From Cylindrobasidium torrendii FP15055 ss-10 (Eukaryota; Basidiomycota; Agaricomycetes; Agaricales; Physalacriaceae): 43,267 bases of DNA. Below are positions 20,136 through 39,068 of this stretch, piece by piece. A program made the translations under genes and the position numbers. Below the pieces are notes generated by a model. The model saw nothing but the letters and a program-made list of their open reading frames with translations, had not been told where the DNA came from and did not search any database. Numbering within the stretch: position 1 is the first letter of the stretch; every line of letters starts with the position of its first letter. The stretch spans positions 1 through 43,267 of the forward strand of contig KN880640.1 in assembly GCA_000934385.1 (NCBI GenBank), read 5' to 3'.

Positions 20136-20830
20136 ATGTCAAAATCTGAAAGCAAACGTAGTAGGCTCTTCGAAGCCCCTAGGAGCAATGGCTACCAACG
20201 GGATGTGCGTAAATTCATTTACACGACGCACCTACGAGTATTAATTCCATGCGGATGACAGGACTTCAGAATTGTGTGCAAAGAAACCCCCATTCCGAAA
20301 GACGAGCTCCCAGACTACCTCGCCAAACGCGTTAACAAAGGTCAATGGATGCCTCCTCTTCTGTGGCTAGGCTGGAGAATGGGAGCCAACGACGCCATTG
20401 TCCTAGACCTCCCCAATGTTCAAACGAGGACCATACTCTACACTGACGGCAGTCCGGACTATGACCCGTATTACGACTTCCGAGACGATCTCGTTACGGC
20501 ACTCCAGCTCTCCGAGGCTGAACAGGAGCTCTTCGAACTCCATGGCATACTGGATGTCGACCAGGATGGCGAAACATCATTGATTCTTGCGGTCGGGAAC
20601 AATAACCCAGGCGACATGCTTTCCAGCGAGCTCATCCAGAGGATTAAGGAGGCGGGGAAGATCAAGGAGGAGCCAAAGTGGTGGCTCGATGAAATAGCTT
20701 GGTATTGGGTACCTGGTCCAAGTAAGTGAAGCACAACCACTGAGGCCTCATTGACTGATGTATTGCAGAGAACCCACGACGTGCCGACTTTCTGAAGGAA
20801 ATCGAGGCTGGCAAGTTGTGGCGTTGGTAG
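20136..20830 (+). CDS. Unrecognised 196-aa protein, family member P1
   Basis: Three exons (20136-20204, 20262-20721, 20769-20830) give 196 residues. I do not recognise the family, but two relatives lie at 37181 and 38362 with the same intron positions. Shared features are a short variable first exon ending in Asp, then D(F/Y)(R/K)(I/V)xCK, PKDELP, WxPPLLWLGWRM, LSEAEQEL, SSELIQRIKEA and a Trp-rich PKWWLDEIAWYW. The protein has no signal peptide or membrane segment and ends in EAGKLWRW. The sequence after it (21270-22745) is related to that after member P3, so gene and flank were duplicated as one unit. Confidence 0.72.
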
Positions 20831-23016: not shown

Positions 23017-23315
23017 CGCCGTCAGTGTCGGACAAGTTCAAGGTACCTTATACGTCAGTATAAGGTTTCTAAGATGACGAAAGGCCACGTTAACCTGATA
23101 TGGCATAATGAAAAGCTTATATGCCTACCTCCGTGCGTATAAGCGGCCTTCAAGGGACGCCAGAGTCAGACTTGCAAGGCAGCCCTGACGGAGCAGACCG
23201 TCGGCTGATAAGATCCATTAGTAGTAGATAAGGACAGCAATGCCCTTATGCGGTACTATATCAACAGGGTACAACAGTGATTGCCTGCCGGGCCTGATAA
23301 GGGGCTGATCTTATC
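23017..23315 (+). repeat. Left terminal and subterminal repeats of the putative transposon
   Basis: Contains the inverted word GTCGGACAA (23027-23035), GTACCTTATA (23043-23052), TATAAGGTTT (23059-23068), AAGCTTATATGCC (about 23113), GTATAAGCGG (about 23137) and GATAAG or CTTATC words near 23207, 23227, 23296 and 23309. The density of this hexamer is far above its surroundings. Confidence 0.65.
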
Positions 23316-23450
23316 TGATGCAGTTCAGCGCGTTTTCTACAGGCTGAGACGGTGTGCACAGTCAAGGGCGCATACAAACGTTGGCATTTCAAATCACAAC
23401 AATGTACATCATAGGCTATGGGCAAGAAGAAACGACACAATGTAAATATG

Positions 23451-26116
23451 TTAGAGCCCCGGTTGAGCTTTACGAGACGAACGGCGGACACTGGCAACAA
23501 CGGGCGCAGCTTCAACAGGCTTAGCAGCCTTCTTGGCCCTCTTTGCCGGAGCCTTAGGCGCCGCCTGACTGGGCGTAGCAGCAACAGCTGTGGTTCGGTT
23601 TGACTTCACGGGCTTTGGCTTTGGTCGAGATGGCCCAGCCACAGGCCGCTCTTCAGCGGCTATTGCTGGCGCTGCTTTCTTACGCGCCGACGCCTTGACA
23701 GGTCGAGGCGGCAAGGTAGCAACAGGAAGGTCGCTGTCGCCATCCTCCATGTTGCCATCCTCATCTTCGTCGTCGTCATCCAAGTCGACCTCCTCCTCCT
23801 CGAGATCTAATAGCAATGTTTAGTGCATCGAAATAGTGAGTGAAGTTACAAACGTACTCAGCGAGAGCTGACGGACAATTCTCTCGACGGGCTCGTCATC
23901 ACCACTGCTATCAGAATCGACCTCGGTGTCGGCTGGGGAAGCGGAAGCTTGAAAAGTGCTGGTGCGTCCACCACGGGAAGCAAGACGGCCGGAAAGTGGC
24001 GCCTCCGCGACTAGATGATTGTCCTGACGCCTCAATCTGTCTTGACTTGCGCCCGCAAGAATTTCATGCATCTTTTGAGCGCGCTGAGCCTTTGCCTGCC
24101 TGGGATCAACTTTGACTGGGGAGCCTGGAGGAAGCGGCGATGCTGCAGGACTTGGGGTGCGCGGAGGCGATGCCACCGGGCTTGCCGTTTGAGGAGACGC
24201 GGTAGGACGATGAGCCCTCACTGGCTGTCCCTGCGATGCTGCAATAGCAGCCTGTATCATTTGTCGGCGACCTTTGCCCACAGCCTGTTCGATGTTGTCG
24301 TATGTAGGGGCCGAGCAAGCTGGTTGCGCCGGAGAAGCATTGGCGCCAAATACCTCCAAATCGAAGCGCGCCATGACCTTGCGAAGGGGAAGGTCGGGGC
24401 TGGTAGACTCATCAAGCATTCCGGAGATGAGAAGGAGCATATTAGACGCGTTTTTCTCATGGTCAAAGCCGGTTGTGGCTCCAGCAGGGGAGAACTGAGC
24501 ATCGCCCAGTAAGAAATGTACAACCTAAGGATAATGAATACGCATGCAAAAGAGAACAGTTTGATGGTGCTTACGAGGCATGCAATGGACGCAAACATTC
24601 CAATGGTTGACTCTTTCAAACTCCACTTATTTGCAAGGGCCGAACCACCAGCGTCCACCTTGTTGGTCCCTGCCTTGTACCTCAGAGCCATCGTGTGCGA
24701 GGGCCCCCAGACCAACATGCGCCCAATCTGTCCGAACAGAGTTAGAGAAAGTGACGTGGGTCAAAAATCTACGCACTCGAGCAAAGATGTTTGTATCGAA
24801 TAGGTCAGTTACCAACATGTCGCTTGTTGCAAAGAAGACAAGTGGCCACTGGGGTGTGCCTATGCCAAATGTTGCCTCTGGATCGGTCTGTACGTCGCGG
24901 CCAGCCCCAATAGGGCCAATGAAAGCATGATAGGCAATGTCGTCCTTCTCGGTCAAGAGCGGCATGCGCCCTGTTGCCATATTCAGAAGGTCGTCGGTGC
25001 GGCAGGAGGAGAGGAGAGCTGCAGCGCGAGGGCACATCATCATGATGTGCTCCCTGCATTGCTTATTGAGGCACTGGGTTATGGGATCGTGACCGGGTAT
25101 CTCACGCCCATCGAACACATTGGTGAACGCCTCTAGAAATATGTCTTGCTGGCCGTCCTTGACGCGATTTATGAAGTTGGACCGGCCCTCGCCAGCGCCC
25201 GAATGAAGCTGTATGATTGTCAGTTAGATGTGGATGGGCGTGGATGGGGCAACGCACAACGGATGTGTAGGCCTCATCTTCGTTTTGCATCCACGAATAG
25301 TACTGTTCTGGAAGAACAGCATAGGTGTCGCGCGCAATAAGCAGGCGAGTAAGTTCGGTGTCGGTGATGGCCTTGAATTCATTGTCGTACATATGGCTGT
25401 CCGCAAGTGCTTCCTCAATCTTCTCAAGCTCGAGGTCGAAAATAGATTGGTGGCTGAACCACGGGTGGACGGTGAGGGTAAGCCGCTTGGCCAGCACCAT
25501 GATCTTCTTGTTTTCAGCGTCGGTAACAGCCATCCCTGCCTGTTCGATGGCGCGAGCATCGGCAATGGCCTCTGAAGAGGGAGGTACGGAGTCGGATCTG
25601 AATTTTAAACGTCAAGAGGAATGATAATAGTGCTTGGCTGTTTACGCACATGTTTTGAGAGCGCCCAGCTACGGCACGGGAAGAAGGAAAGAATGCGTTG
25701 GCGACAACGGCTGCTGCCTCGGGCGCCTTGGCACGGCCCTTCTTAACCTTCCTCTGCGCCAGCGCCTGCGCCTCAGCCTTCTCGCGCCTAAGTTGGTTGT
25801 TCTCCTCCTGGATCTGCTGAAAGCGGAGATCCCTCTGTCGTTGAATTTCCTGTGTGAGAGTAAGCATCTTTAAAAGTAATAATGATTCTGGTTCGGAGCG
25901 CACCTGTGCAGCCTGTTGCGGGGTGGGTCCACGTTGGTGAGGCATGACAAGGAATACCGGGGGGTGGGGTTGAGAGAGGCCCCAGAGATTGAGGGTATTT
26001 GAGTAGTCGAACGCTGGCTGCACGTGGTTGTGCTCATCATGTAGTTGGTGCACGCTATCCGAGGTTTGATGGTAAAGTCCATGGCCTGTGGACGCAGAGC
26101 TTGATGATAAAGGCAT
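23451..26116 (-). CDS. Transposon-borne 785-aa protein with coiled coil and acidic/basic tail
   Basis: Seven exons: 26116-25904, 25849-25650, 25597-25261, 25208-24777, 24727-24575, 24524-23858, 23806-23451. The N-terminus is low complexity. A coiled coil follows at about residues 75-115 (EIQRQRDLRFQQIQEENNQL) with a basic stretch (RKVKKGRAK). The middle 300 residues look globular, with Cys/His-rich QCLNKQCREH, WPLVFFATSDMLV, FARIGRMLVWGPS and MFASIACLVVHFLLGDA. This layout recalls an uncharacterised domain common in Agaricomycete genomes (DUF6698-like), from memory and unconfirmed. The C-terminus is disordered: Pro/Ser repeats, an acidic run (DLDDDDEDEDG) and a basic Ala/Pro/Lys-rich tail typical of chromatin-binding proteins. 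It is probably nuclear and may assist the transposase. The donor of intron 3 (GTTGTG) is weak. Confidence 0.68.
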
Positions 26117-26411
26117 GCGGGCGGTCACAGGTTGCGTGTATGAAAGTTAGAGGAGGTTTTTGGGTGGAGGTCAAAGTCAAAATGTGCGCGGAGAAGGCAA
26201 GTTCGAACAAGCGATCGAACATTCCGGGGTCTGCGGGCCAGACTAGATCCCACTTTGGAAATCACAGTTCCCCTTCGAACTGAAAGCCTAGTACCCTTTT
26301 CCACCAACCGTTCATGAGGCGTGTGATAGTGAAAGTGAAGGGAGCAGCTATGGCATTGAGCATAGATAAGCATTGAAGGGGGTTATTTATTTAGTATACA
26401 AGGGTTAATAT

Positions 26412-28691
26412 TTATATTTTGGTCATCATATTGAGCGCCCTCTCCCATCGGCGCTCGCGCATGGTCCACCATGCCTGCTGCTGAGCCGCCGACATCCTGT
26501 TATAAACCCGCTCTCGCCATGCTTTATCGGTCATATTGCCGTTTTCTGCGTATCTGAATAGACCACCGGCTGAGAAAAGTACATTGGAGAAGCGCTCTTG
26601 ACCTGGGCCTGTCGTAACATTTGAATGCGTAAGTGTTGCGGATTGAATAAGGATTGTCGACAGAGGAGGAAAGCGAATGACGAGCCCCAGGTCCCACAGG
26701 ATGAGATGGCCACCCAGATCGGGGTCGAAGTTGCCCAGTGCTGTGATGGCGCACCAGGCCCAGGCAAGGTTTCCTTGGTCTGTGTGCGGCCAGCACACAC
26801 CCGGATGGTGTCGGCGCCAGCGACGTTCCCTTCGCGTTGACGACCTGCATCGTTGGCGGCCGCCTTGCGGGGCGTCGCTAGCGGGGGGAAGGCCATGGCC
26901 ATGGCCTTCTGGTTGATGGGGTTGTCCTCGGAGGCGATGCTGTCTGTAGACGGTTTAGCTTGCATGGTTATAGGGAAGAATACATTGCGTACTCATCGTC
27001 CTGCTCCTGCTGCTCTTCCTCCTGCTGCTCTTCCTCATCGGCGTTGGCATTGGCATGGGCATGGGCGTTGGGGTAGACTCCGATTAAATCGAAGTCGTCG
27101 TCATCGAGCTCGAGCTCGGAGTCGTCAAAGTCTTCATCGTCGTCCGAGTCTGAGTCTTCTGGAGGCACATACCAGTTATTCGTCTGGCCGGCCCAGAAGC
27201 CCTCGGGAAATGCACCGGGCCAAGGGTAGGCGGCGTCGGGAATAGCCTGTGCGAGGGACCTCAAGAGATCCATGCCATGGGCATGGATATCTGGTTGGAA
27301 GGCCTTGAAGAGGCCTATAGGTGCTGTTAGCATAGCAGGCGGCGCACGCAGAGAGGTTTCATACTATTGGACCAGCCAGCAATGCGCTGGTGCCCCTCAT
27401 GCTCCAGAATCTCCCGGAGGTACGGGATCTCCGACTTGCGTTGGCAGAGAATGCAGGGTTTAACCTGACCTCCGCCAAATGACGTTCCCGCCGTCCGCTC
27501 CTTGCAGGGGCCGCGCCGGTGCTCATGGTAGGGGAATAGCTCGTTCAGCCGCCGGAGAAGGGCGGTGAAGGACTCCAGCGCCTCCCTGTACGAGTTGCCT
27601 CTCACGGCATTTTTTTCCTCGGGACGACCGCCTAGGAGGGCCACGATGCGGCCAGCAACATCCGTGATAGGGATTTGCTCGCTGCGGAGGACTTAGCATC
27701 CTACTCAGGCAGCATATCAGAGGAAGGACTCACATTCCATCCCACCAAAACAGTCGCAGACCGCCTACTGCAAGCGTACCCTCAAGATCCAGCAAGAAAC
27801 GGGGTATGTTCTGAACTAAGCCAATCCAGCCTGATTTTGTGACCGGGGCGCCGGCTGCATCATGGAGGGTTCGAACGGCCTTCATCATGGCTTTCTGAGC
27901 CCTCCTTGCAATGTGGGGCTTCACAGCAGGCGGCTCGACGGTCCAGGCGCCGCTCGCAATGTTTTCCTCCCGTTGCTTCTGCCGATTGGCGAAGTTTTTC
28001 CGCGACCGGCGGTGAAAGAACTCATCGTTGTCTAAGGGCAAGTTAGCACTAGCATGAGATGGTGAGCGCGAGTACGCACCATCTCCTTTGACCTCCGCCT
28101 CATTATCTCCTTCGACAATCCTCTCAGCCGGCCTGGGAACCTTGCGTGGGGGAGACGCAACACTTGCGGAGATGACCGAGGAGGCTGAGCTGGCGCGCTG
28201 CCGTTTATTGGACCCAGACGTCGACGCCTCCAAGGCCGGGGCCGTGGGCACCGGCGCTGCTGGCCGCACCGAGGATGGGGCCGCTGGCCTCTTCTTGAAC
28301 CGGCGCGGGCAGCGTAGAGGCTCCGAGTCGCCGTCCAGTACGCCTAAGTCGTGGTCGAGGGGCTCGGAGACGCTTGCAGACTCGTCGGTAGCATCGAACC
28401 AGGCGCGATCCTGCGCCTGGTGGACCTTTTCGAGGCGGGGCCCGATGTCAAAGGTTTCATCGACTGGCTTGATAACCCGAGCGATTGTGAAGCTGCCGAA
28501 TTTCGCTCGGCTGCGCGTGGTGTGAAGGGGAAACTCGTATATTGTGTCCACGAGCTTCGACGCTGTGAATGGTCATCAGTTGAGGTCTGATATATCGGGG
28601 GAGGGGAGGTTGGCGGAGGGCAGCGGCGAAGTGTAGTGTAAAAAGGGATGCTAAGGGCTCCTCCGGGACGAGAACCCTTCGAAACATCCAC
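26412..28691 (-). CDS. TET/JBP-like Fe(II)/2-oxoglutarate dioxygenase, transposon-borne
   Basis: Exons 28562-27734, 27681-27365, 27314-26993 and 26943-26412 are well supported. A first exon at 28691-28676 is proposed and uncertain; the total is then 671 aa. The N-terminus (LVDTIYEFPLHTTRSRAKFG) leads to a basic disordered region with a nuclear-signal-like NKRQR. A segment with CILCQ and HEGH follows, then an acidic run (EDSDSDDDEDFDD). The C-terminal 130 residues are the catalytic core: iron ligands His and Asp in PHTDQGN, GWCAITALG-like WCAITALGNFDPDLGGHL, WDLGLVIRFPP, the second His in ATLTHSN, and the 2-oxoglutarate-binding Arg region QERFSN with SAGGLFRY. This family is known from Agaricomycetes, where TET/JBP-type genes ride on KDZ and Plavaka transposons. 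The likely substrate is 5-methylcytosine or a related base. The Arg-rich stretch before HTD is odd (see findings). Confidence 0.66.
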
Positions 28692-29529
28692 TCATCAAGG
28701 CGGGGAGCCAAGCGAGCAATGCAATGGTACAGTAAAAGATGCTGTAGGTAACAGGCGGAGTGGACCGTAAGCTGACTTACTGTTGTGGCTCATATTGGTC
28801 CCTCAGTCCTGCCCTACGTGGCCTGCTATTCCTGGCAGGCGGCGTGGCCGACGCCGCGGCAGTGCGGTGCACGCGTGCGCGGGCTGCGCTTGTCGTCAAT
28901 ACCAAGCGAGGCGGTGTATAAAGGGAACGCACTGGAAAGGGGAGAAGGCGGCCACCACACGTCGCAGCCCGGCGGAAGAGCACCTAGTCGTCGCAGATTA
29001 CGCTGATGGTAGGAGGATGAGGAGCGCGATCGATTTGGGCAACGTGTAAATAGAGCGCCTGCGGCATATCAATCATGCCGATCTGCCTTTCATTCCCGCG
29101 CAGAGCCTCTCTCGAAATCACTGTGTTCACTGTACGCGCATTTTTTTTTTTGCTGACGGTGTTGCGGACTCCCATTAACCAGTTCGCCCCCGCCTGCGGC
29201 TCCACCACCTGCTCTTGCGGTGCATTGTACTTTCTTCCCCCCATTTTAACGTGGATTCCCACCTCTTTTTAGCTGCGCCTGCAAGCCCGGCGACTGCAAG
29301 TGCTAAACGCCTTAAATTCCACCCTTCTGTAGTAGTGCAATGAATTGAATGATTATTGTTGTACAATCCGCAAACGGCGTCTTTCTTCTGTGTGCTCTTT
29401 ATGTGCCTTTGCTCTCCGCCTCCATGGCAGCCACTGAGTGCGATAACGATGGACAAGATAAGCCGCGGCGATGTCATGCCAAAAGAATACGACGCACACA
29501 TGCCCTGGTATTGACTCGTCCGTGTAGGG
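28692..29529. other. Spacer between dioxygenase gene and Rab GGTase-like pseudogene
   Basis: About 0.8 kb with no supported gene. It contains a run of 11-12 T (about 29142-29153). Open frames on both strands are GC-rich shadows without motifs. Confidence 0.45.
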
Positions 29530-30636
29530 TTCTGTTCGACCAGGAGCCATGATAGTTGCCGACAGCCTTCCTTCAGGTCGAGGCCATGCTTCCGGATGAG
29601 AAGGAGCTTGTAGTGGACTAGAGATTCCTTGCACCCTGAGAATATTGTGTAAGGTAAGGCGAAGGATGAACGTGAGCAGACGCACAGATGCTATTTTGCT
29701 CCTCCTCGATACCAGTTATCTCAGCCTCGACGAGCGCACGGTCGCTTCCATCACCCAGTAGCCAGCGATGATATAGCCATATGCTCTGGTTTTCCGGGAC
29801 CGTGTAAATGCCATTCTTGACCAGCTCAAGCTCTGTGCTTTGTTAGCGCCAAGATAGAGGTGAACTGTGACCGCACCTTCGGTTCTCGACTTCGTTTGAT
29901 TCACTGTCCCGTCTGCCCACAATGTGCTCAAGACCTTCGCCCGCTGATGCCACGCGCTAAAGTTGGAAATGTTTGACTCTATCTTCTTCATCGTGTACTC
30001 CAGTTCCTCGGTCTGCGGCCGCTGGATAGGCAAACCCGCGAGCACGAAACGTCGATAGTTCCATGCATGAACTATGATAGGTCAGTTAGGTCTTGGTATA
30101 GTCCACGCACAGTTTTGTGAGTCTAGATCCATCCAACGTTCTCTCAACAACGGCCATCTCCTGTTCCCAGCATGCTCTGCGCCAGAGGAGAGGGTCATCT
30201 CCCTCTGGAGTCTGGGGAATGATGCCCAAACACCAGCGCCGGTGGTTTCATATCCAATACACGTTGGGATGAACCTTGAGCGCGCGTAGCGTCATCGCCA
30301 AGTCGTCCACGAGTAGTCCGTTGATCTCTTCTGGTGTGCTTGAAGGGAATAGGCCATTCAACATGATATTGCGTCGGTAGTTCCAGATGGTGTAGAATTC
30401 GGGGTTATCAGAAAGCATTTAGCATTTGAGTCGTGAGAGCGAACGCGTCTTTGGACCAGTCTGCCGCGCGTTTACGAGTGAGGATATCATCGCAGAGCGC
30501 GTTGAATTTGGTTATTTTGGCCTGGTCGCGTTTGCGTTTCGCTTCCAGAGCCTCGGCCGACTGTTTGAGGCGTTTGGTATTGTGCTAGGCGAGCGATAAG
30601 CGCTTTCCAGAGATGAGAGGTCGAAGAGCTAACCAT
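29530..30636 (-). pseudogene. Broken copy of Rab geranylgeranyltransferase alpha subunit (BET4-like)
   Basis: The peptides fit the Rab geranylgeranyltransferase alpha subunit, which with the beta subunit prenylates Rab GTPases. They include NTKRLKQSAEALEAKRKRD at the start, PEFYTIWNYRRN, NHRRWCLG, HAWNYRRFVLAG, TMKKIESNISNFSAWHQR, QSIWLYHRWLLG and CKESLVHYKLLLIRKHG, in the right order for its prenyltransferase-alpha repeats. The start looks like a lone ATG exon (30636-30634) spliced to 30584. Three lesions break it: a 7-bp tandem duplication (30414-30420 and 30421-30427), a TGA in place of the expected Trp codon of WNHRR (30250-30248) and a 4-bp tandem duplication (30127-30130 and 30131-30134). 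The gene is essential in yeast, so a working copy should exist elsewhere. The 3' end near 29530 is approximate. Confidence 0.82.
30414..30427 (-). repeat. 7-bp tandem duplication causing a frameshift
   Basis: AGCATTT occurs twice in direct succession on the plus strand. With only one copy the Rab GGTase-like frame runs on into PEFYTIWNYRRN; with both the frame is shifted. Confidence 0.8.
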
Positions 30637-31235
30637 GGTGGCTGTCGTAATCCAAGAGCCTGCGAACGCAATGATCAAGTGAGATTCGACGCGCTTGATC
30701 CGCCATCATTCCAACCATATCTACATATCACGATCGAGTCATCCGTTCACATTTCATCTCTGTACTCTCACTTTCACGCGTTATGGCGCCAACCCATCCT
30801 CTGGCCTGCGCCTGCGTGCAATGCTGCTCCGAGCTTTCCGCAACGTCTCGCACAGCGCTCCCGGCTCTCCCTGGGACAATGTATACACGGCGGAATCAGA
30901 CATCCTTGCCCAAACAAAATCATTCCTTATGCAAGCTGACTCCATGGCATGGTGTGCGTTGGCAAGCACATCGCCAGTGGTATACAGAGAGCATTACTTT
31001 ACAGACGGTATCAATAGAATAGCCCAAGCTTTACTGCCGCCACCTTGCAATACGACCAGAAAGAGGCCAGACAACCTGGGCTGTAATCGAGGTCAGCTTG
31101 CCATAATTACACAGTGCACCACATTGGAGAGGACACGTACACGTCCTCCTGGACATCACTGCTTTGGGCGCCGGATGTCGCAGATCGCAGGGTATACCAT
31201 GCTGGATCATAGGCTTATGGCCGCAATCAGCTTAG
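30637..31235. other. Unassigned stretch inside the element
   Basis: A plus-strand frame from about 30823 begins MLLRAFRNVSHSAPG, which looks like a mitochondrial leader. An overlapping minus-strand frame (30969-30781) is also open. Neither joins to a convincing exon chain, so no gene is called. Confidence 0.3.
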
Positions 31236-31853
31236 CTATAAGACGCCTTGGGTTGCACTGAACAACTCACTGGAATACCGAAGCATCCTTCCTTGAGCCT
31301 CCACAGCGTCGATGTCCAACGTCAGTTCGAGACTATCAGACCAAGAAGATAGTCGGCGAGTACGGTCCTCTTTAGCTGCTTGAGGTGACGACGAGACTGG
31401 CGTCAAGTTACAAAAGTTTTGTCCAATATTATGATGACCCAATACGTCCTCAAGATGCGCCCTCAGCAATAGCAGTGTCAGTTTGCTGGGCTTGGAAGGA
31501 CTACCAGTGAATTAGAATTTAGCACTAGAACTGACGCGGGGTAAGCATATGCTCACAGGTAGGAGTCCTCGGCTTCCTCAACGGCGTTAGCGCCGTGACT
31601 GCCTCTCTCATATGCTGAGATTGCATCGAACGCTGCATCCACAGAGTATCTTATTGGTAATCAGTCAAGGGCGTATAGCGTATAGGATACTAAAAACTTA
31701 CTTTACCATTGCACTCGACCTTTTCATCAAGTGCTCGGCCTCTAGATCGCTAGACAACCCTTGATCGTCGTGCACTCCTAACATGCTAGACGCCTGAGCA
31801 TTGGCGGCAAAGCGGGATGGGGTCAGTGTCTCTGCTGACGTGTTGGGTTGCAT
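31236..31853 (-). CDS. Unrecognised 169-aa protein inside the element
   Basis: Three exons (31853-31702, 31649-31557, 31500-31236) form an open 170-codon frame including the stop. I do not recognise it. The protein is mostly helical-looking: a polar N-terminus (MQPNTSAETLTPSRFAANAQ), a helix KYSVDAAFDAISAYERGSHG and LTLLLLRAHLEDVLGHHN, then a Ser/Glu-rich tail. It has no signal peptide or clear membrane segment. The splice sites are good (GTAAGT, GTGAGC donors). The last exon could alternatively be spliced at 31270 (AGTGAGT) to more distant sequence. It may be transposon cargo or captured host DNA. Confidence 0.5.
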
Positions 31854-32243
31854 GGTGGTAAGAGGAAGAGGTCGAACGATAGATAAGGTTTTTCGCTGTT
31901 AAAGAAACTTTGATCGACCACGTGCTGTCCAGAAAAGGAACACAATCGCCGCATCATTGCCCCCATTTATCTTGACCTCCCATAGACATATTGCTAGCTT
32001 ATCCAACAATCTATTGCATTGTAGTTCCATCTGCAATGCTCTGGAATGACAAGTTCATACCTTTCCCGCAGCTAAGGTGCGGTTTGCCTGGTAGATCGAA
32101 CCCGCCGCTGCGTGTCACCACAGCGGCTGGGCACAGGTATGTAGGTTTTCCGCTCATAGACCCACAGCTAGGTTTATAAAATTGCACTATATAAGTTAGA
32201 CCATTGAGGCGGTTCCTTCCAAACTGCCTAAGTCTCTATCAAA
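31854..32243 (+). promoter_or_regulatory. Divergent intergenic region with a TATA box
   Basis: It separates the minus-strand gene at 31853 from the plus-strand gene at 32244. TATATAAG at 32188-32195 lies about 50 bases before the ATG at 32244. Nothing else is recognised. Confidence 0.5.
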
Positions 32244-32813
32244 ATGCAAAGCACAACAATTGTCTCTTCCCAAGGTAAGCGGGCGGCATAATACACTAAT
32301 AGTAGTCATATAACTCTAGGCTTACTTTTGGGTGTAGGAATCATCAACTCAATTTGGATCGTTCAACCGCGTTGGAGGGTTTCAACGAGTCGCTACTGGC
32401 CTCCATTCTGGAATTCTGACTTGAGGCTCTATTTGGTCACATGGTACCACCGCAATGAGCCGGGCTGGGAGTATGTGGCCCGCCTGCCACCCTCAATTTA
32501 TGCTCGCCATGAGTTTGCCGTACGCTACCAATTCAGTGAATATGCAGCAAAGGTGTATCTTGAACTTTTACATGAGGTTTGTGTACATTATTCATTTATT
32601 ATTACATTTTCTTAAAAACCTCAGGATATCGAGCGAGGATTACACTATGAGAGGCGGATGAAGGTCTCCATAACCGTTGGGAGCACAAGGATTTCTCTTG
32701 CTTTGATTGTGGCGGACGTTCCGGAGAAATCCCTTGTCGGGATCCCAAAGTTAGGAGTCTGTTATTACTGCAAACAGAGCGCCGGGAAGAAGAGTTGGTT
32801 CCGACCGCAATAG
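32244..32813 (+). CDS. Unrecognised 158-aa Trp/Tyr-rich protein inside the element
   Basis: Three exons (32244-32274, 32320-32576, 32625-32813) give 158 residues. It is rich in aromatic residues (SIWIVQPRWRVSTSRYWPPF, LVTWYHRNEPGWEYVARLPP) and ends with GVCYYCKQSAGKKSWFRPQ, where CYYC is a possible metal-binding pair. There is no signal peptide. I do not recognise a family. It is transcribed in the same direction as the transposase that follows 277 bases later and may be an accessory gene of the element. Splice sites and reading frame are clean, which supports a real gene. Confidence 0.6.
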
Positions 32814-33089
32814 CGCGAGTCGGTAGTGAACATTTGGATAGATGTTGATTGTTGGACTCGATCTCTCGGTCAATGTATGGAATATGATTGTGGCGTAATT
32901 TAGTAGCTTGATATCTTTGTTAATCAGTGGCCATCAATGTTCCGCTTGAAAAATTTAATGCAACATTTGCGATGAATATTTCCTATAACAATATACCAGT
33001 TGGTTTGTTGGTTATATAAACTAGATAGTCTACCATGTCTAAGTCGGCAACTCTTGAATCGCCATCTGCCTCTATCTGCTATATTTACC
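32814..33089 (+). other. Spacer before the transposase gene
   Basis: No gene is seen. The TTATATAAA sequence at about 33013 could be the TATA box for the start at 33090. Confidence 0.4.
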
Positions 33090-36000
33090 ATGAGCACACC
33101 CCAAGAACTCGAACAACTCAAGGCTCGGAATCGACAGATTGTTGAAGCGTTGGAACGGCGAAAAGCAGCAGCTAAAGGAGGTTAGTTTATATTGTTCTTT
33201 CTTTTTTTGCGTCTCTGTTTCTCAATTTGTATTAGGATTTGTTCTAGCTGCAGCTCCCTCAAGCGTTCATATCTCCTCTTCAACACAGGCTAACCAAACG
33301 CCTGAGAGATCGGCCACTGCGGACTCGGACTCCCTGGACTCAACATCGGAAACTGAGTCAAGTCAAGGCGAGGAAAACCAACGTAGGCCTTAGTAGCTTG
33401 TGTTCAGCGTTCACAGACTAACATCATTGACTCTACTAGCCCTCCAAGAGGAGGATATACGCACAGATGATATACGCACTATATACCATCCCAGCTCAAA
33501 CAAGGCCACGACCACAGAACACTGGAACGACTACAACCCTGGATATGGGCACACAGCGTTGGACATGGCTGTGAACTGGTCACCATGGGCGCCATTCCGG
33601 AATCGCCGCGACTTCGAAATTTCCTCTTTGCCTGTGCACTCTCTACTTTCCAGTGGTAGAATCGACGACTACATTCGAAGCTACCACACCGGTCCCTTTG
33701 GTCGCGATCCTGGTATAAGCGCTTCTGACTTTGCAAGCTGGAAGCGCACAATGGATGCTATGGCTGCGCGTCATGGAAAGGTAGGCTTGACCCTAATGCG
33801 CTTAATGCTACACACTGAACTTGTAATTGGTAGTTCAAAACGGAGACCTTGACGGTAAACGTTGAGAAGGACGTTGATATGGAATATAAAGTCTGGTTCC
33901 GCGACATCTGGGACTGGCTCAGCGAGCTCATGGACGACCCGTCTATTGGACCCAAGATGGAATGGGACGCTGTTCAATTGTGGCGCTATGATGGCAAGAC
34001 TTGGTACCGGTTTTATCACGAACCATGGACAGCAGACGGATTTTGGAAGCGTCAGGTATAGCATCCAAGATATGATCAAGTGCGCGTCTGATTCAACTAC
34101 GCTAGGATCAAGTTCCTCCGGATGGGAAGGTTTTGGCGGTACAAATATATGCCGACAAGACCCGCCTCTCGTCCTTCGCAGGTGTTCAAGGATACCCAGT
34201 AATTGGGCGCGTACTGAACATCCCGGTTACCACACGCAATGGAAGAGGGGTTGGCTCAGGCGAACTGCTCGCCTGGCTTCCATTTGTACGTCGTAACAGG
34301 AAGCCTTTGTGAATACCCAATTGACTTCACTTTTGCACTAGCCCGACCACAATCCTCAAGTCAGCGCCCCTGTATGGGCACTTCACAAGAGGAGGGTGTG
34401 GCATGCGGCTATGGGCGTGTTGCTCAAGCCTTTTGCGGATGCCTCAGAGAGTGGGATATATCGCATCATGGCTGCGTATAACAATGAGGTCTGGAGGATT
34501 TATCCTACCATCCTTACGCTTTCAGCCGATCTGGAGGAGCAGTACGTGTTGAATGACTATGCCATACATGTTCTAACGTTGTACAGGTCAGTGATGGGCC
34601 TCACGCGTGGATCAACCGCGAACAAGCCCTGTCCTGTTTGTATGGCAGATAAAGCTACGCAGCATCACTTCATTGACAATGTGCCTCGACGCAACTCTAC
34701 CGACACAAAGGATCGCTATGTCAAAGCTCAAGACATCTCCAATAAGAAAGAGCGCGACAAGTTTTTCCAGAAATACGGGGAACGTGACATGGAGGTATCC
34801 TTAATGCTGACTTTACTATGTTAATTGGTGTACTCAACGTCTGTCAGAATTGTTTCTGGGTAATCGACGGCTTTGATGTCTATTGCGCCCTCCAGTTTGA
34901 CCGACTGCATGTGTGCCACGACGGCCTACTTGGCCAACATTTTCTGCCCTCCTTTGTTTATCATATACACCTGTTGGAAAGGAAGACCCCTAAGGTTCGT
35001 ATTGGTACTTACGCCGCTATCGCAGACTGTCTGTGCGTATACAACCACATTCTTTCGTATTTTCAGCACTGAATATGTACTACAGGCTGGTTGCCTTTCC
35101 ACGTTGGCGGGATATGACCCACTTTGTTAGTGGCTTCACCAATATGACCTTCAACGACGGCACAAAGTTCTTGCATGTTATGACTGTGCGCAGCCTTACC
35201 ACCGCTAATAAACTGTAATTCTTATCATTTCTTTTAGCAAGTTAACTACACGCTACCCTCGATTTTAACACCCACCGCTGATTTGGCTGGATACACTCTA
35301 CTCCGTGCGCACCGCCACTTCCTTGAGTTCGACATGTTCATTGGCATGGAGGTGCATTCGGAGCGGACTATTGCAGCTGGGCGTCGCGTAGCCCGGCGTT
35401 TCTCTGATATGCTACAAGTGTGTGGATCATTAAATTCCTTTTTGGGAATGTTTTAACAATGATATTAGGAGTATGAAGCTCTGGTCCGACCCAACGGCGA
35501 TGAGGACGAAGACGAAGAGCTCATGGCTGCTCCGCCTACCCAAGCTGTCCAGCAGCCAGGCTTATCCAAAAGTGCCCGGCGCACAGCTGCCAACCGGGCC
35601 AAAGGCGAGAAGCTGAAGCCCCGTACTAAGAACTGGGCATTCCCAAAGGCTCATATGGTTCAGCACGCGTTTGACGATGTTGAAGATGCAGGTGCTAGTC
35701 GGAATAACAACACAAAGCACGGTGAAAAGATGCACGGTTCGTTCAAGAATATTTATCAGCGGACAACAAATTTCAAAGACGTTGAGGAGCAGGTATGTGG
35801 ATCTAGTCTAACTACTACTCATTACGCCAATTAAACGCTGGTCAGATTCTTCGCATGGATCGCTATCAACATGGGGTCAATGTTATCAAGGAGGAAATCG
35901 ACCTGTATGATGCACAAATGGCAGCAATCGTTCAAATTCTCAGTGGCGACGAACAAGCACAAGGGACGGAGGGCTTGGTGGACTCTGCAGTAGACACACA

Positions 36001-36823
36001 TGTTTCTGTGCAGAGTCCCGAAGGCAACGGAGCTGGTATTACAACTCTATCCGGCCTTTCCAACGACTTTCCCAAGGATGCTGCATTCGTCGGCTTTGCA
36101 GCGAAACTTAATGCATGTGTTCGACTTCTCTTTGAAGACAGCACCCTCTCCTTCTCTGCTAATGATACGGTCAGTGCACAGCTCTGCTTGCCCATTTCCC
36201 ATTTTTCTAATCATGCGCAACAGATTCAACGCTACGCATCGATGAAGGTCAACTACGAGCACGAAGTTGATGGGCGCACTGCAGTTGACTACCTCAAATG
36301 CACCCCTCTGTTTTATCGACACCCGCGCTATGACTGTGGCCTCTTCCATGATGAAATGGGTGTGTTTTTTGCGCGTCTAGTCATGATTTTCAGCGCCAAT
36401 GTCGCTGGAAGCGAGGGCCCCGTTCTCCTTGCACTCGTACATCCTTACACTCAGCGCCCCAAGAGCACCAACATCGACCGCGACAACAACAAGAGGGCCG
36501 CAAAGGCTAGACGCACTATTCTCACCGACAAAGAGCTTCGCCGCTACCGCGTTCGACCGGCACCTCGTGGAGAGTCGATTGTTGTGCCATTACGGTCGAT
36601 GATTCGTGGTGCTGTACTTGTTCCCGACTTTGGCGTCAAAATGCTGCCTAAGGAGATCTTACAGGCTAAGGACAGGGGTGCGTTAGACGCGCTGTTAGAT
36701 GACCCTAAGCTGCTCTACAAAGACAGGGAGTATCTCGTCGTGGACCTCATTGACGCCGACATGTTTTTGCGTATGTCACAGATTAAATACATCGGGCAAA
36801 CAGTCACCCATGCACCCTACTAG
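33090..36823 (+). CDS. Plavaka-type DNA transposase (1030 aa, 13 exons)
   Basis: Exons: 33090-33180, 33236-33382, 33440-33780, 33834-34055, 34106-34285, 34342-34541, 34587-34794, 34848-35004, 35067-35185, 35238-35417, 35469-35792, 35846-36169, 36224-36823 (3093 nt, frame kept throughout). A coiled-coil start (LEQLKARNRQIVEALERRK) and a Ser/Thr-rich linker precede the domain typical of Agaricomycete Plavaka transposases: WSPWAPFRNRRDFE, a YADKTRLSSFAG motif with a candidate catalytic Asp, PCPVCMADKA, FDRLHVCHDGLLGQHF, FPRWRDMTHF with FNDGTKFLHV, NWAFPKAHMVQHAFDD, and NNNTKHGEKMHGSFKNIYQR. No stop or frameshift was found, so the enzyme may be active. It would cut and paste DNA at the element ends in the nucleus. 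The assignment to Plavaka rather than another KDZ/CACTA-related group is from memory of these motifs. The last intron (54 nt) is a multiple of three and could be retained. Confidence 0.82.
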
Positions 36824-36899
36824 CTACTCATCTACTACTCATACATATCAGGTGTACCAGACAAGTATCGAATGATTCTTTCCGCCTCCCGATGTCATT

Positions 36900-37166
36900 A
36901 GGTATTGTGGACCTGATAAGACCTTGCTCCGACCTGATAAGACGGATCAAAGTCGTATCCGATCCGACATTTGACAGAGCGGCCAACCCGCCCAACTGGG
37001 ACCCGATACGAAGACACAGACCTCATATAAGGTACAGCTAAGCGTATAAGATCGCCAAAAGAGCGAACGGAGCGGTGATTCGCATCAGGGGTTCCAAAGC
37101 TTATATGCCCCCCATCAGGCGCCAAACCTTATATGCCCACTTTACTTTGTCCGACAAGCAACGGCG
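36900..37166 (+). repeat. Right terminal and subterminal repeats of the putative transposon
   Basis: Contains CTGATAAGAC twice (about 36913 and 36934), ATATAAGGTAC (about 37025), GTATAAGATC (about 37043), AAGCTTATATGCC (about 37097), AAACCTTATA (37124-37133) and TTGTCCGAC (37147-37155). The last three mirror words at the left end. The start codon of P2 lies only 25 bases beyond 37155. Confidence 0.65.
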
Positions 37167-37180
37167 TCCCTTTCCTCAAA

Positions 37181-37908
37181 ATGTCCCATACTGATCACGA
37201 GCGTGCCCTCTTTGAACTACCTGATGGTAGGGAGTACAAGTGGGATGTGCGTATGCTCACTGGCGCAACATACCCATGCATACTTACTCACCTCCCCTTG
37301 CGTGCTATAGGACTACAAAGTCGTCTGCAAAGAAAGCCCCATCGCCAAAGACGAGATACCATGGTACCTCACTAACCGTGCTTTCAAAGGTGACTGGATA
37401 CCTCCCCTTCTGTGGCTTGGCTGGCGCATGGGGCCCGACAACGCCTTCCTTGACTTTGTCAAACGTAATGACCCAGGCTCACTCATTCTCGTTGGCTATG
37501 GCGAGGATAAAAAGCCAGGAACCCCCTCTTTCTTTAACTTTCAAGACAATCTTCATCAAAAACTCCAGCTTTCAGAGGCCGAGCGGGAGATCCTGGATCT
37601 CGAGGCCATAGTGGATGTCGACAGGGATGGGGAAGTGTCGTGGATACTTGTTGTGGGAAATAACAGTCGAAACCACATGCTATCCGACGAGCTCATTCAG
37701 AGAGTCAAAGAGGCGGCCAAATTTGAGGAAGAGCCACAGTGGTGGCTCGATGAAACATCCTGGTATTGGCAGCCGGGTCCAAGTGGGTGTTTCGCGCATT
37801 TCGCACCCGTTGTATCTGTTCACTGACGTACGTACTGCAGGGCACCCGGGACGAGCACAATTTGCGAGGGAAGTCCAGACTGGCAGGTTCTGGCGCCGAC
37901 CGGTGTGA
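37181..37908 (+). CDS. Unrecognised 201-aa protein, family member P2
   Basis: Three exons (37181-37246, 37311-37782, 37841-37908) encode 201 residues with the intron positions of P1. Shared features: exon 1 ending YKWD, DYKVVCKESPIAKDEIP, WIPPLLWLGWRM, LQLSEAEREILDLEAIVDVD, LSDELIQRVKEAAKFEEEPQ, then a WWLDETSWYW segment and an Arg-rich end. It appears intact. The putative transposon ends about 15-35 bases upstream of the start codon, so the original promoter has probably been displaced and expression may now depend on sequence inside the element. Confidence 0.75.
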
Positions 37909-38361: not shown

Positions 38362-39068
38362 ATGCCGGAGTCTGACGACGAGCGCTTCCTCTTTATACCA
38401 CCTGGCAAAAACGGATATAGATGGGATGTGCGTAAACTCACGATGTGTTTGCGACTCTGAAGCTCACTGTTCGAATGATAGGACTTCAAGATTTTGTGCA
38501 AGGACTGCCCCATACCCAAAGACGAGCTTCCCGTGTACCTAGCCAACAGCATGGTCAGTGAGAAATGGATACCTCCCCTTCTGCGACTAGGTTGGCGGAT
38601 TGAGTCTACCAACAACACCTTCATTAACTTCATCACACGTAATCACCCGGAATGTATCGCTTACAACAAACCGGGTGGCCCGCCGAGCCATGTCTACTCA
38701 CTTTTGAGATTCCGATATAAACACCGCGAGGAACTCCCCAATGCTGAGCAACAGCTGAGCAAGAGCTTCTAAATATCCGCTGCATAGTGGACGATGGCAA
38801 GGCCAAAACTGTTCTTGCATTTGGAAGCAACATGCTACACGAAATGCTCTCCGACGAGCTCATCCACAAGGTTATTGAGGCGGCGAAATTCGAGGCCGAG
38901 CCAATGTGGTGGCTCGATGTCAAATTCTGGTTTTGGAAAGCTGGTCGAGGTGAGTGAACAGCAAATACTTGGGCTATTGACGTTAACTCGAGCATTGCAG
39001 AGAATCCGGTACAGGATGACTTCATGGACCTGGTCAGATATGGTATCACAATGGCACCTCCAGAGTAA
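38362..39068 (+). pseudogene. Family member P3, frameshifted by an 11-bp tandem duplication
   Basis: Exons 38362-38427, 38482-38949 and 39001-39068 match P1 and P2 (YRWD, DFKILCKDCPIPKDELP, WIPPLLRLGWRI, LSDELIHKVIEAAKFEAEPM, WWLD). In exon 2, CTGAGCAACAG (38744-38754) is followed directly by CTGAGCAAGAG (38755-38765). This 11-bp duplication shifts the frame and leads to TAA at 38770-38772. The coding sum is 602 nt; it is divisible by three only without those 11 bases, and the rest of the gene is open. The lesion may therefore be recent. Confidence 0.8.
38744..38765 (+). repeat. 11-bp tandem duplication causing a frameshift in P3
   Basis: Two adjacent 11-mers differ at one base (CTGAGCAACAG, CTGAGCAAGAG). 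P1 and P2 have a single unit (SEAEQEL, SEAEREI) at this place. Confidence 0.8.

Follow-up and report, generated by a model that had tools for sequence, protein, structure and literature searches.

Does a 14-kb segment of the Cylindrobasidium torrendii FP15055 ss-10 genome form one Plavaka transposon, and does the dioxygenase-like gene inside it belong to the element as a TET/JBP-like cargo? The segment lies in contig KN880640.1, and the window analyzed here is this whole contig (43,267 nt; C210 among the 494 contigs of the 29.3-Mb genome that was searched). A first-pass annotation, made from the sequence letters, had proposed a Plavaka-type transposon carrying such an enzyme. We consider it likely that the segment is a single autonomous-looking element of the PlavakaA type, situated upstream of a tandem-family gene and bearing a TET/JBP-like anti-silencing oxygenase as cargo. 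The evidence consists of ends that match each other and those of relatives, a target site duplication, an open transposase gene, conserved oxygenase residues, and recurrent linkage of oxygenase and transposase genes.

Ends, transposase, and type of the element

The element occupies positions 23026–37156 of the window (14,131 bp). It is bounded by perfect 10-bp terminal inverted repeats, with TGTCGGACAA at 23026–23035 (+ strand, where it occurs once in the window) and its complement at 37147–37156 (− strand, TTGTCCGACA). Border repeat analysis placed the dinucleotide AG on both outer sides (23024–23025 and 37157–37158), representing a 2-bp target site duplication. The left (23036–23400) and right (36840–37146) subterminal regions contain the same repeated CCTTATA/CCTGATA-type motifs: counted on both strands, CCTGATA occurs twice at the left and three times at the right, and CCTTATA twice at each end. 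Both are absent from the interior, where several 7-mers common to the ends are rare or absent. The matching repeat-rich borders of the first-pass annotation (23017–37166) were therefore confirmed, with the exact ends about 10 bases further in. Among 5000 Markov-shuffled border pairs, some 10-bp inverted repeat appeared in 334, and a TGT-starting one with equal 2-bp flanks in 0 of 5000, the latter test having been framed after the TGT-starting pair had been seen. The real borders hold four 10-bp inverted pairs. Besides TGTCGGACAA, two of these have equal flanks: AAGGGACGCC, the right arm of which lies outside the right end of the element, and GTACCTTATA, which lies inside both ends.

The Plavaka transposase gene (33090–36823, + strand) encodes 1033 aa in 13 exons without an internal stop, as had been proposed; this model was used instead of the first automatic one (11 exons, 1066 aa). 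The protein matched the Plavaka profile PF18759 with an E-value of 1.8e-36 and 126.5 bits, above the cut-off of 26.3, so that the family assignment was borne out by profile search. The Plavaka pattern, a D, D, E triad in which CxxC and HxxxH follow the second D and precede the E, was found in D284, D390, C409, C412, H680, H684, and E704, the last of which we take to be the catalytic E. D284 and D390 were constant in the seven alignment rows covering each, C409 in seven, and C412 in six, and H680, H684, and E704 aligned, as judged by eye, in all five rows covering them. The transposase gene looks functional from its sequence.

The nearest transposases in the genome are those on C292, C54, and C279 (46%, 43%, and 40% identity at the C-terminus, respectively), and termini ending in TCCGACA, like the right repeat of the window element, stand behind all three. 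The C54 element (C54:93254–106853, 13.6 kb) has both ends present and a GA duplication, and resembles the window element in size and layout, the transposase lying at one end and frames that point outward occupying the opposite end. In a tree of eight transposases, in which the seven rows besides the window cover 52 to 742 of the 1033 positions, the window, C54, C292, and C279 were separated from C131, C379, C5, and C437 with a local support of 0.962; the TGTCGGA-ended transposases form the group thus separated. The available text of Kojima 2025 (PMC12730594) describes PlavakaA by TGT..ACA ends with 2-bp target duplications and PlavakaB by CATCA..TGATG ends with 2- or 3-bp duplications. Both PlavakaA features are present in the window element, which, judged by its ends and duplication, is of the PlavakaA type, the tree support coming from within one genome.

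A second arrangement was found at C379:4129–16837, where 15-bp ends of the form CATCT..AGATG are flanked by an AA duplication (approximately 0.01 such pairs expected by chance); this element is PlavakaB-like by its ends. As in the window element, a Plavaka transposase is accompanied there by a divergently oriented oxygenase of the same family; it differs from the window element, with its TGT..ACA ends and AG duplication, in both end features and in carrying the accessory gene X described below. The window and C379 ends together therefore show that, in this genome, both kinds of end occur on Plavaka elements holding TET-like genes. At C437, an 11-bp inverted pair with CATCAGGAAA was found without a matching duplication, and no convincing ends were found at C5, C53, or C296.

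The oxygenase family and its linkage to Plavaka

The candidate TET/JBP-like 2-oxoglutarate (2OG)-Fe(II) oxygenase gene extends over 26412–28572 (− strand), where 28572 is an exon edge rather than a start-codon call. One model has exons at 28572–28080, 28031–27734, 27681–27365, 27314–26993, and 26943–26412. The motifs PHTDQGN and LTHSN, on which the dioxygenase proposal had been based, both lie in the open stretch 26415–26954 (−). A protein search with the window oxygenase found relatives at no fewer than 14 loci in the genome, giving a set of 15 with the window; the closest among the matches listed, on C453, is 49% identical over 83 residues. All 15 members have HxD, a second H 52–53 residues on, and R 11–13 residues further, that is, the iron ligands HxD..H and the 2OG-binding R, and in every one of them H+5 is N or D and R+6 is Y or F. 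The other 14 members are open across the catalytic domain. The N-terminal part of the window protein gave weak similarity to two relatives (z scores of 2.3 and 2.6, with 10/300 and 7/300 shuffles as high).

The positions next to the iron ligands bear on the type of enzyme. According to the accessible part of PMC11040006, hTet2 Asn1387, NgTet1 Asp234, and CMD1 Asp350 contact the 5-methylcytosine (5mC) base, CcTET of Coprinopsis cinerea has Gly331 there, and an aromatic residue stacks on the base, namely Tyr1902 in hTet2 and Phe391, six after Arg385, in CcTET. At these positions the present family looks like the conventional TET pocket, as far as sequence can indicate. In that same part of PMC11040006, CcTET, an AG-type enzyme, is like the window oxygenase in having H-x-D, a second H after 50 residues (53 in the window protein), R after a further 9 (11 in the window protein), and the aromatic residue at R+6; it differs at H+5 (Gly, as against N/D in the present family) and at H+11 (Asp, as against C/S/N/A). 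The AG-type signature (Gly/Ser at H+5, Asp at H+11) was thus lacking in 15/15 members, the H+11 comparison assuming no gap, and so was the PE-type HxE, HxD being present in all 15. We describe the window oxygenase as TET/JBP-like rather than as a proven member, on the basis of its relatives and active-site residues.

The oxygenase genes are recurrently found with Plavaka transposases. Of the 15 oxygenase loci, eight, counting the window, share a contig with a PF18759 match, such matches occurring on 24 contigs (P = 4.6e-8; P = 5.1e-7 when the window is left out; contigs counted equally irrespective of their lengths). The two genes are divergent in 8/8 linked loci, at a distance of 6.2–7.1 kb in seven of these and 15.7 kb in C244. 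Beside the C453 oxygenase gene is a large frame that resembles a transposase but has no convincing Pfam match; its relatives lie on five further contigs, of which none carries an oxygenase locus.

Other contents and surroundings of the element

Next to the oxygenase gene lies a 7-exon gene model encoding 786 aa (23451–26116, − strand), which corresponds to the protein of 785 aa previously called chromatin-like. This description was not upheld: no recognized chromatin protein was matched, and the best assignment was a borderline one to DUF6698 (PF20414; 23.2 bits against a cut-off of 23.7, E-value of 6.4e-5), a family of unknown function. A protein search with the 786-aa protein found no relative elsewhere in the genome, and a genome search for DUF6698, which did not recover the window gene, found one locus, C131:20589–21334, located 3.1 kb from a Plavaka match (C131:24429–25099). 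Given this neighborhood, DUF6698 genes may serve Plavaka elements as accessories. When the core of the 786-aa protein was compared with the outward frames at the far ends of related elements, that of C54 gave a z score of 0.1 (136/300 shuffles as high) and that of C292 a z score of 4.3 (2/300); with the N-terminus included, the values were 1.6 (23/300) and 4.5 (0/300), respectively.

Between the oxygenase and transposase genes lies a copy of host DNA (29152–30790, −), 89.6% identical to C135:20985–22634, together with a further 52-bp piece (30797–30848) that is 94% identical to C135:20064–20115. The donor locus matches the Rab geranylgeranyltransferase alpha subunit (BET4) and cytoplasmic asparaginyl-tRNA synthetase (AsnRS); the copy comprises the AsnRS start region and a broken BET4, which, compared with the donor, contains a 7-bp insertion and stops prematurely. 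Its identity per 150 columns ranges from 0.80 to 0.99, with the peak at 30478–30627. The copy was presumably made as DNA, because it runs uninterrupted across the gene and the shared upstream region. The stretch from the host segment to the transposase holds a small two-piece open frame (32292–32813), the first piece of which had no Pfam match. Gene X, an accessory gene without a Pfam match, is common to the Plavaka loci of C54, C292, C279, C379, and C437, which include both kinds of end; when sought in the window, it gave no match.

Outside the element, a tandem family of related genes occurs on both sides (20247–20823, 37296–37895, and 38467–38974), and the end of the element lies directly upstream of one of them. 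The pieces of these genes that were scanned had no Pfam match. An empty-site comparison of the joined element flanks with the window alone matched just the similarity within this gene family.

Alternative explanations and significance

In the mechanism that we propose, the transposase would act at the inverted repeats, so that everything between them would move as one unit. The oxygenase would be, or descend from, an anti-silencing gene that oxidizes 5mC or another methylated base and thereby permits expression of the element, the DUF6698-like protein would serve as an accessory, and the BET4/AsnRS piece would be passive captured DNA. An anti-silencing role has been proposed for other TET-carrying (TET+) transposons in the available text of PMC12730594.

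A number of results weigh against this reading, and several of them concern the nature of the oxygenase. The window protein matched no Pfam family. With E-values up to 1, three of the 15 members reached 2OG-FeII_Oxy_3 (best E-value of 3.4e-4), two reached Tet_JBP (PF12851) more weakly (best E-value of 0.0076), and one each reached the unrelated families DarP and KRAB, none above cut-off; ten trimmed oxygenase domains searched at E-values up to 5 gave four matches to 2OG-FeII_Oxy_3 and two to Tet_JBP, also none above cut-off. Searches of solved structures with the window oxygenase exon, one relative, and two family profiles gave nothing meaningful, and the two profiles matched no TET among structures that included many oxygenases. 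The AlphaFold model of the window exon alone had a mean predicted local distance difference test (pLDDT) score of 39.5 and was not usable. A Tet_JBP search over the whole genome found no match, and 14 controls gave nothing either, making it uninformative. The profile and structure searches speak for a 2OG-Fe(II) oxygenase that is not of the TET/JBP kind and acts on a substrate other than methylated DNA. We regard this as unlikely, since the N/D at H+5 and the aromatic residue at R+6 found in all 15 members are the 5mC contacts of hTet2, NgTet1, and CMD1 in the accessible part of PMC11040006, and both Tet_JBP matches align in one register, at profile positions 88–161 of 164.

The integrity of the window copy is a closer question. 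In-frame joining of its HxD exon to the exons upstream is possible only via acceptor 26944, which lies four bases from another acceptor leading into the other frame, or via an alternative 328-nt intron (27172–26845, GT..AG); the first model has four further introns, of 48 to 52 nt. The codon score of 26939–26800 is 6.9 in another frame versus −7.1 in the HxD frame, and the Asn ten residues before the first His in 14/14 relatives is Arg in the HxD-frame reading of the window; a long acidic stretch with a strong coding score (27172–26993) stands before HxD. The frame directly upstream of HxD is doubtful, and the copy may be interrupted there; the element may therefore now move without the oxygenase. 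The chances are about even that the window oxygenase is a decayed passenger, with its frame broken just upstream of the HxD strand and the element relying on its transposase alone. Against this, both of the above joins give gene models in which the HxD frame is read with no stop inside, and the HxD, H, R, N, and aromatic residues are all retained. The reading given in the first-pass annotation is right in outline and supported in part, its dioxygenase claim being carried by the relatives and the active-site residues.

Further results weighing against a mobile, TET-carrying unit come from the genome at large. For seven of the 15 oxygenase loci (C453, C465, C416, C405, C347, C425, and C238), no Plavaka match lies on the same contig. 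Copies of the element were sought with the borders, the end pattern, and 23400–30800 as DNA, and with the transposase and both cargo proteins as protein. Neither the two borders nor the end pattern recurred elsewhere in the genome, and the host segment was the sole other match of 23400–30800. Since the element is single copy, its mobility is unproven, and co-mobilization of the oxygenase and the 786-aa protein is judged from structure. The observed/expected CpG ratio, from a count of the sequence, was 0.92 in the element versus 1.01 in each flank; neither CpG depletion nor decay resembling repeat-induced point mutation (RIP) was seen in the element relative to its flanks. This gives no clear sign of methylation-driven decay, and the earlier suggestion that the element could lift methylation silencing is an inference. 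The missing second copy, the host segment of other origin in the middle of the element, and the lack here of gene X, which five related loci have, would also suit borders that belong to different elements, with the transposase gene next to the oxygenase and 786-aa genes by chance or nesting. We consider this very improbable in view of the matching 10-bp ends, the equal 2-bp flanks and the common subterminal motifs, the similar size and layout of the C54 element, and the divergent order of oxygenase and transposase in all eight linked loci.

We thus favor a single PlavakaA-type element with a TET/JBP-like cargo. TET/JBP genes are reportedly linked to Plavaka in basidiomycetes (a link attributed to Iyer et al. 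2014), and the association of the two genes in the window element is of the same kind. In the available text of PMC12730594, that earlier association was implied by gene neighborhood, and TET+ Plavaka was not recovered in the earlier-linked fungi except Agaricus bisporus. TET+ Plavaka elements with defined ends are described there from A. bisporus and Gymnopus confluens; all TET+ Plavaka families are placed in PlavakaB, and the Plavaka-borne enzymes are of the PE type (HxE). The pairing of Plavaka with a TET-like gene is therefore already published in that source, and the window element is like those of Kojima 2025 in holding a transposase and a TET/JBP-like dioxygenase gene within one element with defined ends. 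It differs in having TGT..ACA ends, a 2-bp duplication, and HxD, compared with CATCA..TGATG and HxE in that text. What is new is the presence of TGT..ACA ends on a TET-carrying Plavaka, the HxD family across both kinds of end, and the captured host segment. It is tentatively conceivable, although we would not favor it as a whole, that the family is a further, as yet undescribed type of TET-like enzyme, being of neither the AG nor the PE type and combining HxD with an Asn/Asp base contact like that of TET2. It would then have spread through Plavaka elements of both kinds, the TGT..ACA-ended one among them, which would exchange it together with the DUF6698-like protein as an anti-silencing cassette.

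TET carriage was reported absent from the TGT..ACA-ended Plavaka branch in the available text of PMC12730594, and none was found in the Plavaka literature searched; the window adds a defined-end element from that branch. The oxygenase family numbers 15 loci within one genome, and the window case shows a copy of host genes within a Plavaka element. If the proposed reading is true, a transposon with its own methylcytosine oxidase would counter silencing by DNA methylation directly.

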